Part shown: positions 14,952 through 60,195 of the stretch, piece by piece
Layout: each line of letters starts with the position of its first letter
How positions within the stretch are numbered: position 1 is the first letter of the stretch
From: Alphaproteobacteria bacterium
GTDB taxonomy: Bacteria; Pseudomonadota; Alphaproteobacteria; Rs-D84
DNA length: 64,000 nucleotides
Direction: 5' to 3'
NCBI GenBank assembly: GCA_015062495.1
Contig: SUUN01000001.1
Span: forward strand, 223,069-287,068
Notes under the pieces: generated by a model
What the model saw: the letters and a program-made list of their open reading frames with translations, nothing else
Databases searched by the model: none
Told to the model about the DNA's origin: nothing
Translations under genes and position numbers: made by a program

Positions 14952-14977
14952 AATTTATGGCGAGTATGGCGTATAAT
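14949..14977 (+). promoter_or_regulatory. promoter of leader RNA A
   Basis: TTGAAT (14949-14954), 17-bp spacer, TATAAT (14972-14977). It predicts transcription from about G14984 into the structured leader. Confidence 0.75.
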
Positions 14978-14983
14978 GGATAT

Positions 14984-15193
14984 GTCGCCGGGTGTTCCGG
15001 TGATGGGGTGTCAAGACCCGTGCCAACGCGTCGACGGACATATTTAGTGACGCATGTATGCGTCTTTTTTGTTGACCAAGACGTAAAAACTCCTGAACCC
15101 GGTTGGGTCAGGAGGGTTGCGATATATATAAATAAGCACACAATTCGTTGGATTGTCTTGAACCTCCTGACCACCTGATATTGGTGGTTTTTT
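14984..15193 (+). ncRNA. structured leader RNA A with two terminator-like modules
   Basis: This is the gene-free stretch between alaS and the secreted-protein gene. The 5' domain is a three-way junction: helix GTCG/CGAC (14984-14987 with 15032-15035), hairpin CCGG-GTGTT-CCGG and hairpin GGGT/ACCC (15006-15019). GACGC at 15049-15053 can pair upstream with GCGTC (15028-15032) or downstream with GCGTC, forming a terminator with a T-run ending at 15070. The second module has a stem CTCCTGA/TCAGGAG (15090-15114). TCAGGAGG (15108-15115) can instead pair with CCTCCTGA (15163-15170), which abuts a second terminator, ACCACC/GGTGGT plus six T. The element is homologous to leader B (37000-37214, minus). 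No known riboswitch class was recognised. Confidence 0.7.
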
Positions 15194-15249
15194 AATTACC
15201 CAATTATGCAGGGGCAAAATTGGGATTAACAAAATTCAGGAGTGAAAAG

Positions 15250-15756
15250 ATGAAACATTTTTTACCAATAACAATATCAATGTTGTTAATACCAGGTGTG
15301 GCCAGCAGTATCGTTACTGGAATAACGTGCCAAACCGGTCAGGTTTGCTGTTACTATAACAATGCAGGCGGATGTATGAAATGCGCTGCGGCGGGTTCTT
15401 GTCCCACATGCACATGCCCATTAAATACGGATAATGATCCGACCATATGTTCCAGCACGGAATGGACCGCCAATGGGACCGAGGGAACATATCACCGTTG
15501 TTTACAGGTACAAAGTAACGCTGCACTGGAAATATGCGGATGTCAATATAGTTGTATGCCGGGGTATTATATGACATACGACGCAACCGCAGCCAAAAAC
15601 ATATGCGTCAGATGCCCGTCTATAAATGGCGTGTATGGTACAACGGTTGATCATAACATCAACGGTATTACAAGTTGCTATATCCCCACAGGGACAAGCC
15701 TGAGCGACGACACAGGAACGTTCGAATTTACAAGCCAGTGCAATTACACAAACTAA
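15250..15756 (+). CDS. secreted Cys-rich protein of unknown function
   Basis: A 168-residue protein starting at 15250, 7 bp after CAGGAGTG. A signal peptide (about residues 1-20) is followed by a mature part with many Cys in CxxC-like spacings. Near the C-terminus it has ITSCYIPTG and the motif DDTGTFEF followed by Cys, also found in the two Cys-rich proteins encoded near 28.3 and 36.3 kb. Disulfide-bonded export to the periplasm or surface is likely, but no function is known. Expression probably passes through leader RNA A, which ends 56 bp upstream. Confidence 0.75.
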   Translation: MKHFLPITISMLLIPGVASSIVTGITCQTGQVCCYYNNAGGCMKCAAAGSCPTCTCPLNTDNDPTICSSTEWTANGTEGTYHRCLQVQSNAALEICGCQYSCMPGYYMTYDATAAKNICVRCPSINGVYGTTVDHNINGITSCYIPTGTSLSDDTGTFEFTSQCNYTN

Positions 15757-36261: not shown

Positions 36262-36289
36262 AACAACCGCCATTTGGCGGTTGTTTTAT
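36262..36289. terminator. bidirectional terminator between sodB and the Cys-rich pair
   Basis: AACAACCGCC-ATTT-GGCGGTTGTT stem with T-run right and A-run left. Confidence 0.88.
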
Positions 36290-36564
36290 TGATACATCAT
36301 ACACGCTTCTGAAAATTCATATGTACCAGTTGCGTCTGTGTACGACACACCCGCCGGCGCGTACATTATACAAGCACCAACTGGATTTGCCACCAGGCAC
36401 GATTCCGCGTCACCCGCAGAACTTGTGCCCGCAGGACAGCTGGATCTGACCAGCATATACCGTTCGTTAACTGCAACGTATCCTGTGGGACATTCGGTCG
36501 CAGGCGCAATAGCCACAGCAACCGATGGCACGATGAAACAAAATATCATTAAAATTGTTTTCAT
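36286..36564 (-). CDS. small secreted Cys-rich protein
   Basis: A 92-residue protein with a signal peptide (MKTILMIFCFIVPSVAVA) and five Cys in the mature part. It ends with PAGVSYTDATGTYEF followed by Cys, the motif shared with the genes at 15.3 and 28.3 kb. The start at 36564 follows GGGGGG. It lies 10 bp after the preceding secreted-protein gene and shares its leader RNA. Function unknown. Confidence 0.7.
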   Translation of the reverse strand: MKTILMIFCFIVPSVAVAIAPATECPTGYVAVNERYMLVRSSCPAGTSSAGDAESCLVANPVGACIMYAPAGVSYTDATGTYEFSEACMMYQ

Positions 36565-36574
36565 AATCCCCCCA

Positions 36575-36970
36575 CTAGTCCGAAAATGATGCCAGAATAA
36601 AACTGCGAAATTCAGATTCATTGACCATTGAAGTGGCGCACGCATGAGAGCAACTTTGATGTCCGGTCGCAACATGGCTCGCCCATGCCCATTTTGTAAC
36701 AACCGGGGATACAATTTTGCACCAACATTCGGTTGTGCCATTGGCAGAACTTACGCTGTCTGCGACATCATCGTCAACATTGTCAGCAGCGACCGCAATA
36801 CCCTGGATGGGCAGTCTATTGCAAGTGACAGACCAATCATAAGACGAAGTTTGGAACACAGGGTCAGCACATGTGATTTCTGGGGTTAAAGGGACACATT
36901 TTTGCACCGCGGCAAATGTGGGAACAGTTAAAATTGCGCCAAGCGCAGTTAAAAATAATTTGGTTTTCAT
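36575..36970 (-). CDS. secreted Cys-containing protein of unknown function
   Basis: A 131-residue protein with a signal peptide (MKTKLFLTALGAILTVPTFA). The mature chain contains paired Cys (QKCVP, EITCAD, SVTCNR, ECWCKI, QSCSHAC) and ends in a hydrophobic-acidic tail. The start is the ATG at 36970, 10 bp after AGGAG; an in-frame TTG at 36979 is too close to that site. It is first of a two-gene unit with the downstream small Cys-rich gene and is preceded at 30 bp by leader RNA B. No family was recognised. Confidence 0.68.
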   Translation of the reverse strand: MKTKLFLTALGAILTVPTFAAVQKCVPLTPEITCADPVFQTSSYDWSVTCNRLPIQGIAVAADNVDDDVADSVSSANGTTECWCKIVSPVVTKWAWASHVATGHQSCSHACATSMVNESEFRSFILASFSD

Positions 36971-36999
36971 GTTTTTCAATCTCCTGTTTATTTGTTTGT

Positions 37000-37214
37000 A
37001 AAAACAAAACCACTGTTTTTACACGAGTGGTCAGGAGGCTGATAACAATTGCTAGAATTGCGTGCTTATTCGATATATTCGCAACCCTCCTGACACCAAT
37101 ATCAGGAGTTATTTCCGTCGCAAGAATAAAAAATAGCGCGTCGCATGCGCCATAGGTTTATATTCCGACGCTAGCACAAGGGTTATCAGGCCCCATTATG
37201 GTAACCACCATAAC
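37000..37214 (-). ncRNA. structured leader RNA B, homologue of leader A
   Basis: This is the gene-free stretch upstream of the Cys-rich pair. It reads like leader A: a 5' hairpin (ATGGT-GGTT-ACCAT), a GGG/CCC hairpin, GTGC(T)AGCGTCG, and a GCGTCG/CGACGC pairing before a T-run. CTCCTGA/TCAGGAG follows, then GGGTTGCGA-AATAAGCAC and a CAATT/AATTG hairpin. CCTCCTGA at 37031-37038 is complementary to TCAGGAGG and abuts a CCACT/AGTGG terminator with a T-rich tail. The inner hairpin covaries with leader A (ACAAT/ATTGT there). Confidence 0.7.
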
Positions 37215-37220
37215 ACATTT

Positions 37221-37249
37221 ATTATACAAGATAAAATAATATTGTGCAA
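37221..37249 (-). promoter_or_regulatory. promoter of leader RNA B
   Basis: Minus strand TTGCAC (37244-37249), 17-bp spacer, TATAAT (37221-37226); predicted start near 37214. Confidence 0.75.
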
Positions 37250-37308: not shown

Positions 37309-39054
37309 TTAGTGTTCTTCGCCAATGTGTTCGGGTTGATATATTTCAACGTCGCGTGTCATTGCCAAGAATTTATCCGCGCGTTTTGACGGTAATTCAT
37401 CGACCGGAATTTGCTGTAATTCAGCAATCTGGGCGGCAACAGAATTGGCTAATAATTCCATTGTTGTTTGCCAATCTGTGTGTGCACCACCGGCCGGTTC
37501 ATGAACAATTTCATCAATCACGTTCATGTCCGCCATATCGCGCGCGGTCAATTTCATTGCTGCAGATGCAGTTGCGCGATATTTATTGTCGCGCCACAAA
37601 ATACTGGCGCATGATTCAGGGGCAATTACAGAATAAATTGCGTTTTCCATCATCAATACACGGTCGCCCGTTCCAATCGCAATCGCACCGCCCGAACCAC
37701 CCTGGCCGGTGTTGACGGCAACGTATGGCGCGCGCATTGACAGCCCCGCCGCAATTGATGACGCAACCGCCTGGGATTGACCGCGTTCTTCGCCTTCGCG
37801 GCCAGCGAATGCGCCGGCGGTATCAAACAGCGAAATCAATGGTAACTGGAATTTTTCCGCCAGGCGCATCATGCGAACCGCCTTGCGATAGCCGTCGGGA
37901 TTGGCCATACCGAAACGATGTTTCTGACGGGTTTCGATGGTACGACCCTGTTCCTGGCCAATAATGACGGCAGGAATACCGCGCCAGAACCCAATACCAG
38001 AACCCATTGCCGCATCTTCGGCATATAATCTGTCGCCGGCCAGATATGTCCAATCGTCAACAATACCATTGATGTAATCCAGGAAATGCGGGCGATTTTC
38101 ATGACGTGCCAGCAATACTTTGTCATATGCTTCGTTTTCACCCATGCCACGAATCTTTTTCGATGCGTCATGCGCAGGCGTCGTGGCAACAATTTGTTTT
38201 GGGGCGCGTTCTTGCTTGGTCAAAACCGCCAGGATTTTCGCAATCGCATCATGCAGGTCACCACGTGCCACAACCATATCGACCATACCGTGTTCGTACA
38301 GGTATTCAGCCGTCTGGAAATTTGATGGCAATTTTTCGCGAATGTTTTGTTCAATGACACGACGACCGGCGAAACCGATACGTGCACCCTTTTCCGCAAT
38401 ATGGATGTCGCCCAGCATCGCAAAAGACGCCGTTACACCACCAAATGTCGGATCGGTCAACAAAACGATGTACGGAATGCCGTTTGCGTGCAATTTATTC
38501 ACAGCGGCCGTTGTGCGTGCCATTTGCATTAATGACAAAATGTTTTCCTGCATACGAGCGCCGCCACTGGATGTGACCATAATAAACGGACGGCGTTCTG
38601 CAACCGCATGTTCCATCGCTGCAACAATTGCATCGCCCGCCGCACGTCCCATAGACCCCATCATAAACAGGCCATTCAAAACGCAAACCGTCGATGGAAC
38701 ACCACCAATTGTTCCGTCCGCCGCAGATACCGCGTCATAACACCCCGTTTCAGAACGCGCATCATCCAGGCGTTCGGTGTACGCAATGCGATCGACAAAC
38801 TTTAATGGGTCGTCCGATACATTTGGTGGGGTTAATTTTTCCCAGGTATTATCGTCAAACAGTAAATCAAAACGCTGTTTCGGGGTCATGATAAATGCAC
38901 GACCGCAACTGGGGCAAATGTATTTATTATCCTTGTAATCTTTATAGTAAACCAGTTTGCCACACGATTCACATTTTATCCACATCAGGCGACGAACACG
39001 TTCATAGCGTTCGCGATTTCGATTTTTAATGCCTGATTTTTTGCCAAATAACAT
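37309..39054 (-). CDS. accDA: fused acetyl-CoA carboxylase carboxyltransferase beta-alpha (AccDA)
   Basis: One 581-residue chain carries both carboxyltransferase subunits, normally separate proteins. AccD part: zinc ribbon C28-x2-C31...C47-x2-C50, then GGARMQE and GGVTASFAMLGD. AccA part from about residue 300: LARHENRPHFLDYI, RGIPAVIIGQEQGR, FGMANPDGYRKA, FDTAGAFAG and NTGQGGSGGAIAIG. The enzyme transfers carboxyl groups from carboxybiotin to acetyl-CoA to make malonyl-CoA for fatty acids. Catalytic elements of both halves look intact. The fusion ensures equal stoichiometry. It lies 2 bp after the IHF-like gene on the same strand. Confidence 0.95.
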   Translation of the reverse strand: MLFGKKSGIKNRNRERYERVRRLMWIKCESCGKLVYYKDYKDNKYICPSCGRAFIMTPKQRFDLLFDDNTWEKLTPPNVSDDPLKFVDRIAYTERLDDARSETGCYDAVSAADGTIGGVPSTVCVLNGLFMMGSMGRAAGDAIVAAMEHAVAERRPFIMVTSSGGARMQENILSLMQMARTTAAVNKLHANGIPYIVLLTDPTFGGVTASFAMLGDIHIAEKGARIGFAGRRVIEQNIREKLPSNFQTAEYLYEHGMVDMVVARGDLHDAIAKILAVLTKQERAPKQIVATTPAHDASKKIRGMGENEAYDKVLLARHENRPHFLDYINGIVDDWTYLAGDRLYAEDAAMGSGIGFWRGIPAVIIGQEQGRTIETRQKHRFGMANPDGYRKAVRMMRLAEKFQLPLISLFDTAGAFAGREGEERGQSQAVASSIAAGLSMRAPYVAVNTGQGGSGGAIAIGTGDRVLMMENAIYSVIAPESCASILWRDNKYRATASAAMKLTARDMADMNVIDEIVHEPAGGAHTDWQTTMELLANSVAAQIAELQQIPVDELPSKRADKFLAMTRDVEIYQPEHIGEEH

Positions 39055-42455: not shown

Positions 42456-42650
42456 GTCAGTTAGCAGTTGGGCATCGATACCCCAGATAACTAACAAAAA
42501 TTTGTTTTAACCAACCGTCCCGACATAAAAGTCGGGAAGTTGTGGCCATACAACAGGGTGCGTTAAGAGCATCTAAAAACCACAAGGTCAAAGTTATCTG
42601 ACTTATCGAACTTCCCGACTCCTATTCCTGATGTAAAATAGGAGTTTTAT
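42456..42650 (+). promoter_or_regulatory. 195-nt structured leader before the GT6 gene
   Basis: A GTTAG/CTAAC hairpin lies at the 5' end. The stem TCCCGAC-ATAAAA-GTCGGGA (42518-42537) follows. GTCGGGAAGTT (42531-42541) can instead pair perfectly with AACTTCCCGAC (42609-42619). CAGATAACT near 42484 is complementary to AGTTATCTG near 42592. The last hairpin, CTCCTATT/AATAGGAG (42619-42626 with 42637-42644), contains the AGGAG ribosome binding site and is followed by TTTTAT, so it could block translation or end transcription. Same design as leaders A and B without obvious sequence homology. Confidence 0.6.
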
Positions 42651-43532
42651 ATGAAAAAAGTTGCCGTTTTATATATTGCACTGGGGCGATATGTATCTTT
42701 CTGGAAAGGGTTCTATGAATCATGCGAAAAATACCTGGGGCCATGTGAAAAGGAATACTTTATATGGACCGACAATAATGTCTTTGATTATTCAGACGCA
42801 AAAAATGTACATGTTATACACGCCCAGAAAAAGGGATGGCCATATGATACACTGTTGCGGTTTGAAATGTTTTTGCAACGCGAAAAAGAACTGAAAGAAT
42901 TTGATTATATCTATTTCTTTAATGCAAATATGGAATTTGTAAATCCTGTGGATTTAGCCGAAATTACACCACGCGAATGGCACGACGGATTGGTCGCGGG
43001 CAGTCACCCGGGACGCCGTGGCGACGTGTTGTCAGGCAATCCAGACGCATTCGGATACGAACGCAGACCAGAATCAACCGCATACGTACCATACGGCAAG
43101 GGAAAACACTATGTCTGTGGCGCATTTAACGGCGGGACAAGTGAAGCGTTTCTGGAAATGTGCAGAAAACTGAAAAAGAATATCCAAATCGATTTAGATA
43201 ACGACATTATTGCACGCGTTGATGATGAATCGCACCTGAATGCATATTTAATAGATAAAAAATATCTGCTGTGTGGGCGCGCGTACGGATTCCCAGAAAA
43301 AAAGATAAAATATGTAAACCCAATTGAAATGGCGATGATTAAAATTGTCTCGCGGCACAAGGGACACCCAAAATACGGCGGTGTACGGTGGCTGCGCGGA
43401 CAGACAGAACGAAAAATTCCAAACAATTGGTTCATACGCAATGTTATGATACCGGGATGCAAGGTTGTGTCTGTGTTTATTCCGTCGAAAAAATATAGAA
43501 ATAAAGTAAAAAAATATTTCGGTTCAATTTAA
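42651..43532 (+). CDS. GT6 family glycosyltransferase (ABO/alpha-1,3-Gal(NAc) transferase-like)
   Basis: A 293-residue retaining glycosyltransferase resembling vertebrate histo-blood-group ABO transferases. Features in order: VAVLYIALGRYVSFW, RFEMFLQ, the FFNANMEF motif in which NAN replaces the metal-binding DxD as in other bacterial GT6 enzymes, GSHPG, YVCGAFNGGTSEAF, and DDESHLNAYLIDKK. The C-terminus is basic, suggesting membrane association. The likely reaction is transfer of Gal or GalNAc in alpha-1,3 linkage to a surface glycan without a metal. AGGAG lies 6 bp before the ATG inside a hairpin. Confidence 0.85.
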   Translation: MKKVAVLYIALGRYVSFWKGFYESCEKYLGPCEKEYFIWTDNNVFDYSDAKNVHVIHAQKKGWPYDTLLRFEMFLQREKELKEFDYIYFFNANMEFVNPVDLAEITPREWHDGLVAGSHPGRRGDVLSGNPDAFGYERRPESTAYVPYGKGKHYVCGAFNGGTSEAFLEMCRKLKKNIQIDLDNDIIARVDDESHLNAYLIDKKYLLCGRAYGFPEKKIKYVNPIEMAMIKIVSRHKGHPKYGGVRWLRGQTERKIPNNWFIRNVMIPGCKVVSVFIPSKKYRNKVKKYFGSI

Positions 43533-59743: not shown

Positions 59744-59833
59744 TGGCGGATGGTGAGGGATTCGAACCCCCGGTGGAGTTGCCCCCACAACGGTTTTCAA
59801 GACCGCCGCATTCGACCGCTCTGCCAACCATCC
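59744..59833 (-). tRNA. tRNA-Ser (anticodon UGA)
   Basis: A 90-nt class II tRNA with encoded CCA. The acceptor is GGATGGT/ACCATCC, the anticodon loop is CTTGAAA (UGA), there is a long variable arm, and the T-arm is GGTTCGAATCC. Its 5' half is duplicated twice upstream in the 153-bp repeat. Confidence 0.95.
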
Positions 59834-60195
59834 TAAACTTGTTCCCGTCGGTCTTTCTACCTACGGTTTTGTTCGCTGACCGTGCCTGACGGCACTGCTC
59901 ACCACTCGTTAGCGTTCGGCTGCACTGCGTTTGCCTTACTTACTCGTATGCAAGACCGCCGCATTCGACCGCTCTGCCAACCATCCTAAACTTGTTCCCG
60001 TCGGTCTTTCAACCTACGGTTTTGTTCGCTGACCGTGCCTGACGGCACTGCTCACCACTCGTTAGCGTTCGGCTACACTGCGTTTGCCTTACTTACTCGT
60101 ATGCAAGACCGCCGCAACGCCCCGCCTGCCAACCATCCTAAACTTGTTCCCGTCGGTCTTTCAACCTACGGTTTTGTTCGCTGACGCTGCGTAGT
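59798..60195 (-). repeat. 153-bp tandem repeat containing the 5' half of tRNA-Ser(UGA)
   Basis: CAAGACCGCCGC starts at 59798, 59951 and 60104, a period of 153 bp and about 2.6 copies. Each unit carries the first 36-37 nt of the tRNA (to the anticodon loop) plus a linker of about 116 bp with a GTGCC/GGCAC hairpin. Copies 1 and 2 are nearly identical. Copy 3 is degraded in the tRNA part and truncated. No ORF was seen in this gene-free stretch. Confidence 0.85.

Follow-up and report, generated by a model that had tools for sequence, protein, structure and literature searches.

C4-like leader RNAs before secreted-protein genes in an order of host-associated Alphaproteobacteria and their proposed role as transcription attenuators

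Introduction

The copy number of plasmids pT181 and pIP501 is under the control of antisense-RNA transcription attenuation, and the C4 RNA of bacteriophage P1 acts on icd/ant. The antisense role of P1 C4 at the ant ribosome site has been described (PMC12197685), and its release from a precursor by RNase P is cited in PMC11143913. The other RNA relevant here, sRNA-Xcc1, belongs to a symE cassette of a Xanthomonas integron, where it is located upstream of its own gene (PMC12444791), and was seen as a discrete RNA of about 100 nt (PMC2996969). Until now, C4 has been a curiosity of phages P1, P7 and their relatives, and sRNA-Xcc1 an unexplained RNA beside symE.

The present study concerns leader RNAs found in a stretch of 64,000 nucleotides of an alphaproteobacterial genome (contig SUUN01000001.1), referred to below as the window. 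The leaders constitute a large family of covarying C4-like RNAs, amplified in the order, in which a terminator replaces the antisense target. It is proposed that they work as bistable transcription attenuators.

Organisation of the leaders

Leader B occupies the minus strand at about 37226-36999 and is bounded by a predicted TATAAT promoter and the ATG at 36970 (Table 1). It aligns with leader A in the pairwise comparison that the initial annotation proposed, is closed by a terminator lying some 30 nt ahead of that ATG and, as annotated, precedes a two-gene cysteine-rich unit, two short Cys-rich genes following it. From 5′ to 3′, the layout of the family comprises the promoter, hairpin P1, a GRGG/CCYC hairpin whose loop holds word b1, then word a1, P3, P4, the C4 fold, the terminator, the Shine–Dalgarno (SD) sequence and the gene. 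In the C4 fold, an outer stem surrounds hairpin 1, hairpin 2, whose loop contains a′, and the free strand b′. The family P4 helix, CTCCTGA...TCAGGAG, uses the 5′ strand of the outer stem and therefore competes with the C4 fold. P3 often encloses a hairpin with a T run, and hairpin P1 is of the TCGTCGG/CCGATGA type in other copies. Of 53 copies, 49 have a -10-like hexamer ahead of b1, where 21.2 would be expected.

Alignment of leaders A and B revealed the fixed words AGGAGGGTTGCGA and AATAAGCAC. These had been regarded as fixed and single-stranded; the first part of this statement holds, but the words are partly paired, within the GTTGC stem and between TCAGGAGG and CCTCCTGA. In hairpin 1 of the leaders, GTTGC pairs with GCA(C)AC and encloses the conserved loop GAATATATTGAATAA. 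The b1/b′ words are TCAAGAC/GTCTTGA in leader A and TGATAAC/GTTATCA in leader B, and the a1/a′ words are CCAACG/CGTTGG and TGCTAG/CTAGCA, respectively. The a1/b1 words, the C4-like topology, the competing P4, the copy number and a third member of the window (42531-42619) had all escaped the initial annotation.

Table 1. Positions of leader RNA elements and adjacent genes in the window
Feature	Position	Strand	Basis or remark
Leader B: sigma-70-like promoter, TGCACA-16-TATAAT	37221..37248 (TATAAT 37226-37221)	-	10/12 matches; predicted
Leader B: 5′ hairpin P1, TTATGG..CCATAA	37196..37213	-	sequence
Leader B: b1 word TGATAAC, within loop of GGGG/CCC hairpin	37182..37188	-	pairs with b′
Leader B: a1 word TGCTAG	37171..37176	-	pairs with a′ (CTAGCA)
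Leader B: P3 helix GCGTCGGAATA..CGACG around terminator-like hairpin	37116..37171	-	sequence
Leader B: P4 5′ strand CTCCTGA	37102..37108	-	pairs with outer-stem 5′ strand
Leader B: C4-fold outer stem, 5′ strand TCAGGAGG	37086..37093	-	7/8 pairs with double changes family-wide
Leader B: hairpin 1, GTTGC / GCA(c)GC, conserved 15-nt loop GAATATATCGAATAA (37080-37066)	37060..37085	-	covariance, alignment
Leader B: hairpin 2, CAAT[TCTAGCA]ATTG, loop holds a′ CTAGCA (37055-37050)	37046..37060	-	covariance
Leader B: b′ strand GTTATCA	37040..37046	-	pairs with b1
Leader B: C4-fold outer stem, 3′ strand CCTCCTGA	37031..37038	-	pairs with TCAGGAGG
Leader B: intrinsic terminator GACCACT / AGTGGTT, then TTTTGTTTTT	36999..37032	-	5′ arm overlaps outer-stem 3′ strand
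Gene 1 after leader B: 131 aa, signal peptide, 5.3% Cys	36575..36970	-	no Pfam match
Gene 2 after leader B: about 92 aa, Cys-rich, signal peptide	36286..36564	-	start chosen at MKTILMI
Leader A, anatomy as leader B	14972..15195	+	TATAAT 14972-14977, b1 15011-15017, a1 15023-15028
Leader A, continued		+	P4 15090-15096, outer stem 15108-15115/15163-15170, hairpin-1 loop 15121-15135
Leader A, continued		+	a′ 15146-15151, b′ 15155-15161, terminator 15169-15195
Gene after leader A: 168-aa Cys-rich protein with signal peptide	15250..15753	+	
Member C, sRNA-Xcc1-like subtype, more divergent	42484..42644 (fold 42531-42619)	+	RF02221 35.4 bits, E 6.5e-5, below gathering threshold 53
Member C, parts		+	a1 CAGATAACT 42484-42492; P4 CCCGAC 42519-42524; outer stem 42531-42540/42610-42619; a′ about 42592-42600
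Gene after member C: glycosyltransferase family 6 (PF03414)	42651..43529	+	

A hairpin at the terminator position of member C (42619-42644) covers the SD sequence, which suggests translational rather than transcriptional control for this predicted structure. Member C and another copy of the same genome, C1:359228, have no clear overlapping terminator; thus, the copies are not all of one design.

Some other features of the window were noted. Inside P3 of leader B, between a1 and P4, there is a second terminator-like hairpin with a T run (37153-37133, minus strand), and other copies have it likewise; phage P1 and locus L247 also carry a U/T-run hairpin at the P3 position (the P1 layout between a1 and C4 was read by eye). 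Directly upstream of leader B, accD and accA are fused in one 581-aa ORF (37312-39054, minus strand) containing a zinc ribbon and both carboxyltransferase halves. At positions 59798-60185, a 153-bp unit is present in 2.5 tandem copies (97% matches); the array begins within a tRNA-Ser(TGA) gene (59744-59833) and carries a piece of that gene, an arrangement such as might be left by repeated integration or slippage at the tRNA end.

Covariation

In 43 aligned full-length type-1 copies, pairing is maintained in 100% of cells for the b1/b′ helix and in 99.2% for a1/a′, with double changes at five of six pairs in each. Altogether, 10 of the 12 long-range pairs are doubly changed, and there are no single-side changes, which is not the pattern of a recent duplication carrying only unpaired substitutions. 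The idea of a selected RNA structure, put forward in the initial annotation, is thus supported by these long-range helices and not by those named there. The supposed covariation of the inner hairpin (CAATT/AATTG against ACAAT/ATTGT) turned out to be one CAAT/ATTG helix read in two registers, and its four pairs, those of hairpin 2, are invariant in the 43 copies. The terminator difference, ACCACT/AGTGGT against ACCACC/GGTGGT, amounts to one compensatory pair only.

The outer stem and the hairpins vary little within type 1. When types 1 and 2, another family and phages were compared, 94.8% of cells in the C4 fold were paired, against 73.3% in shuffles and 28-53% when the fold was slid, with double changes at 14 of 16 pairs. 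In type 2, P4 changes together with the outer stem (CTCCAAC / GTTGGAG / CTCCAAC).

Upstream complementarity to a′ and b′ is copy-specific (5.62 and 5.67 nt against 4.17 and 4.15). In the copies read from the genome studied, b1 lies about 10-12 nt ahead of a1, and none shares both words with another copy, as read by eye from the table of copies. Downstream, complementarity to a′ and b′ reaches 4.08 and 4.16 nt in a copy's own region and 4.10 and 4.15 nt in the regions of other copies, none of it copy-specific among 107 copies of the genus; therefore, the antisense target a2/b2 is gone. A search of the whole genome for the word pair of leader B found nothing beyond its own a1b1 and the opposite strand of a′b′; the word pair of leader A is matched at one additional place, with wide spacing, which does not exceed the rate of the control pattern.

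Terminator and downstream genes

An intrinsic terminator (a hairpin and a T run) is present in 105 of 106 copies of the genus, at the place where phages would have the b2 hairpin. It overlaps the outer stem in 102 copies, in most of them sharing 3-5 nt with its 3′ strand, and P4 of at least 5 bp with the 5′ strand is possible in all 106. Minimum-energy folding, which ignored pseudoknots and kinetics, predicted P4 in 91 of the 106 copies before the 3′ strand of the outer stem appears and the C4 stem in 89 once this strand is present; with the terminator included, P4 (60) and C4 (38) are near balance. The predicted passage from P4 to C4 and to near balance is the behaviour expected of an attenuator. 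As in a transcription attenuator, the terminator of the predicted structures lies between promoter and gene and is mutually exclusive with an alternative helix. The end of the RNA is about 45-60 nt from the ATG in most copies, and because of this short gap the gene seems to need read-through.

Among the proteins encoded downstream in the same genome, 16 of 24 possess a strongly hydrophobic N-terminus (10 of 53 control ORFs), and the mean cysteine content of the 24 is 6.25%, against 1.68% in the control ORFs. Twenty downstream proteins were scanned against Pfam, and the only families above the cut-off were glycosyltransferases (three) and one HTH family.

Copy number and distribution

A covariance model of the 81-nt core (R1) scored leader B with 92.6 bits (E 1.4e-18) and leader A with 88.0, both being in its training set. 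An exact search for the core words gave 8 copies in the 0.9-Mb genome under study and R1 gave 21; the RF02221 model adds five, including member C, to make about 26 copies, one of them weak. The initial annotation proposed a search for further copies before secreted-protein genes; such copies do exist, mostly before genes for secreted Cys-rich proteins. R1 has matches in 143 of 156 genomes of the genus, many with at least 29 candidates, and in one of 286 sampled genomes of the same class outside the genus. The scores, the 21 copies and the near absence outside the genus indicate that the leader match is not due to chance.

With R2, a wider model of the C4 fold, matches were obtained in 177 of the 201 genomes of the order and in 19 of its 23 genera, some genomes having at least 26 copies; of 396 genomes sampled from the phylum beyond the genus, 4 matched. 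The named assemblies that contain the exact core are MAGs of Alphaproteobacteria, and many of them come from the guts of roe deer, water deer, sheep, yak, buffalo, horse or rabbit. Two IMG/VR contigs (L173 and L174; 33187 and 17623 bp) carry a type-2 leader alongside phage tail and lysozyme-like genes, and this leader adjoins a gene for a 316-aa secreted protein similar to the product encoded after copy C1:27580 of the genome studied. By their gene content, such contigs are a possible vehicle for the spread of the leader.

No match to the leader RNA was found in Rfam at the gathering threshold (the window and nine loci of the same genus), and a lenient Rfam scan of leader B gave chance-like matches only. 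Known riboswitch classes were rejected, as there was no Rfam match. A leader peptide, TTG CGA ATA TAT TGA, was also considered and rejected: its form in leader B has no stop, and its start is too near AGGAGG.

Phage relatives

The GAATATAYTGAATAA part of the hairpin-1 loop is identical in phage copies. Many of the 53 IMG/VR hits of the loop pattern are due to chance, about 40 matches having no flanking stem; hits were therefore retained only where the fold was complete. The exact loop and fold precede BRO-N type antirepressor genes at L184 (twice), L212, L220, L223 and L192, a Rha-type gene at L196 and, in another alphaproteobacterial family, a BRO-type gene at L142, the gene names at phage and relative loci coming from reading the translations. 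Among the BRO phages, the a′ loop has two complementary sites, a word farther upstream and the SD sequence of the antirepressor gene (in L220, the partners of a′ CTATGTA are GTACATAG upstream and, over the SD, TACATAGGAG), and b′ likewise has one complementary word upstream and another downstream. The C4 antisense RNA of phage P1, for which the Rfam alignment shows an identical topology, follows this logic. Most phage copies contain a2/b2. The word-finding script also recovers a1, b1, a2, b2 and P4 in phage P1; P4/P5 of the distant copies L196, L245 and L271 were assigned by eye.

L227 and L271, from another alphaproteobacterial family, combine the fold with a terminator-like hairpin, so that the conversion is not confined to the order; L227, which lacks a2/b2, precedes a lipoprotein-like gene. 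The 15-nt loop is opened by an extra hairpin in L158 (C1:54844-54940 of the genome studied), L227 and L244, with GAATA and AATAA kept; it therefore probably constitutes a separate internal-loop motif and is not simply open.

The model of C4 (RF01695) gave no match in the genome studied at E<=10, the gathering threshold of 45 bits not being reached; the best relative, L227, scores 25.4 bits, and P1 itself 68.8. The model of sRNA-Xcc1 (RF02221) gave seven matches, all below the 53-bit threshold; the best has 49.5 bits (C1:300683-300773) and copy C1:99916 has 30.2; leaders A and B are missing from its matches at E<=1. Of 14 control genomes, two gave a signal, and only a weak one. Since the leader fails both curated thresholds and the C4 model finds nothing, the RNA is called here C4-like and not C4.

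Two R2 matches in other proteobacteria, L244 and L247, exceed the RF02221 threshold. The GAATA...GAATAA loop within a C4-like fold is common to them and to the family, as judged by eye. L244 precedes a KilA-N type gene, and another R2 match, L245, a SymE-like gene. L245 (G668), L244 (G579) and L247 (G687) are sRNA-Xcc1-type RNAs, and words near the SD sequence at L245 look complementary to its own a′ and b′. With such words, sRNA-Xcc1 would be a cis-encoded RNA of the C4 type that controls symE.

Regulatory model and alternatives

It is proposed, with a probability of roughly 0.6, that the leaders are C4-type antisense RNAs converted to cis-acting bistable transcription attenuators. Such a leader would be a C4-type RNA that has lost its antisense target (a2/b2) at the gene start and gained a terminator overlapping the outer stem. 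RNA polymerase would start at the TATAAT promoter, and the nascent RNA would fold P4 (CTCCTGA:TCAGGAG) first. The emerging CCTCCTGA would then take TCAGGAGG from P4 to form the outer stem, and since this stem takes up the initial bases of the terminator as well, polymerase would read through (ON). If P4 were held or re-formed, the terminator would fold (OFF). Pairing of a′ and b′ with a1 and b1 would set the balance, either in cis, as a double pseudoknot, or in trans, with a second RNA transcribed from that locus, and the conserved loop may be the site at which a factor acts. The computations show how the RNA folds and covaries, which helices compete, that the terminator overlaps the outer stem and that a2/b2 are absent, as well as how many copies there are and which genes they precede. 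The promoter, regulated read-through and switching are predicted; transcription of the leader together with its switching is inferred from the model, and a signal, like the direction in which a/b pairing would act, is presumed.

The derivation from C4 is supported by the same topology and P4 in phage P1 and by the location of phage relatives before BRO, Rha and KilA-N genes, most of them with a2/b2; the lack of an RF01695 match at E<=10 counts against it. The same phage evidence bears on another explanation, in which the leader is an attenuator of the riboswitch or protein-binding kind: the double pseudoknot formed by a1/a′ and b1/b′ would be purely structural, and the loop GAAUAUAUUGAAUAA with its helix would bind a ligand or a host protein common to the regulon. 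This would account for a loop that hardly differs between the genus, another family and phages, and for the address words of leader B being present only in cis, and one factor could co-regulate some 20 secreted-protein genes. However, in the phage relatives these a′ and b′ strands serve as antisense at the SD. In place of the loop, P1 C4 carries only a UUCG hairpin, and the loop of L158, L227 and L244 contains a longer hairpin, although this says little about a sensor. A riboswitch or protein-dependent device is possible but seems rather unlikely.

Still less probable is a free trans-acting antisense sRNA made by each copy and ending at the terminator, as was proposed for sRNA-Xcc1, its position before the gene being incidental or supplying the promoter only. 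The discrete ~100-nt sRNA-Xcc1 (PMC2996969) and the RNase P processing of P1 C4 (cited in PMC11143913) are in line with it, but the words of leader B have no second copy in the genome, the one match of leader A is at the control rate, the gene follows closely, leaving little room for its own promoter, and a2/b2 are not in excess downstream. Translational control through sequestration of the gene's own SD (TCAGGAG) by CTCCTGA or CCTCCTGA would suit several type-1 genes, whose SD is exactly complementary to both strands. Type-2 leaders contain CTCCAAC, yet the SD sequences of their genes are not GTTGGAG but GGGAGG, AGGAGG or, in C2:113638, ATCAGGAGG; the type-2 SDs do not co-vary, TCAGGAG therefore looks like a common SD, and this explanation appears very improbable. 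A recent duplication or a mobile promoter-leader cassette without selection for RNA structure would explain the many copies per genome, but each copy has different words that are still paired, two subtypes are deeply diverged and 19 of 23 genera of the order are involved, which leaves it hardly any credence.

Returning to the C4-derived attenuator, one may tentatively go further and suppose that a phage RNA controlling an antirepressor was domesticated and amplified into genome-wide, self-addressed bistable switches, with an a/b code of its own at each locus and each secreted-protein gene switched independently. We consider this extension doubtful; if true, it would mean independent, e.g., stochastic, on/off states and cell-to-cell variation of the surface or secretome.

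The shared layout (b1, a1, P3, P4 and the C4 fold) links C4 with sRNA-Xcc1 and offers a likely mechanism for the symE/sRNA-Xcc1 pair. In host-associated alphaproteobacteria with genomes of about 1 Mb, the terminator version stands before dozens of genes, mostly for secreted Cys-rich proteins, which gives a testable regulatory hypothesis for poorly known gut bacteria. The many fully paired address words also make up a naturally replicated set of candidate switches for the study of strand displacement and RNA-RNA specificity.

Comparison with known systems

No description of chromosomal amplification of a C4-like RNA was found in the open-access literature, where older phage papers are thinly covered. 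The leader has the architecture of C4 and sRNA-Xcc1, to both of which it is probably related. As in C4 of P1 and P7 (RF01695, with its c4-a1b1 motif), there are two hairpins in an outer stem, a′ in the loop of the second and a free 7-nt b′. The complementary a1 and b1 lie upstream in the same order as in P1, with a U-run hairpin between a1 and the C4 fold and an upstream strand of the P4 type. Unlike in P1/P7 C4, a2/b2 were not found at the SD in the 107 copies of the genus, and a terminator is present instead; the leaders precede genes of secreted Cys-rich proteins and not of antirepressors and number 20-30 per genome. Hairpin 1 of the leaders has the conserved GAAUA...GAAUAA loop, whereas that of P1 C4 is the plain UUCG hairpin. 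This loop, of the GAATA...GAATAA type, and the fold are shared with sRNA-Xcc1 (RF02221). Known copies of sRNA-Xcc1 stand before symE (here also before KilA-N), while those of the order have an overlapping terminator and no a2/b2. The proposed control resembles the attenuation in pT181 and pIP501, in that RNA pairing with the nascent leader would decide between termination and read-through. In these plasmids the antisense RNA comes from the opposite strand, whereas in the leaders the pairing partners are on one transcript.
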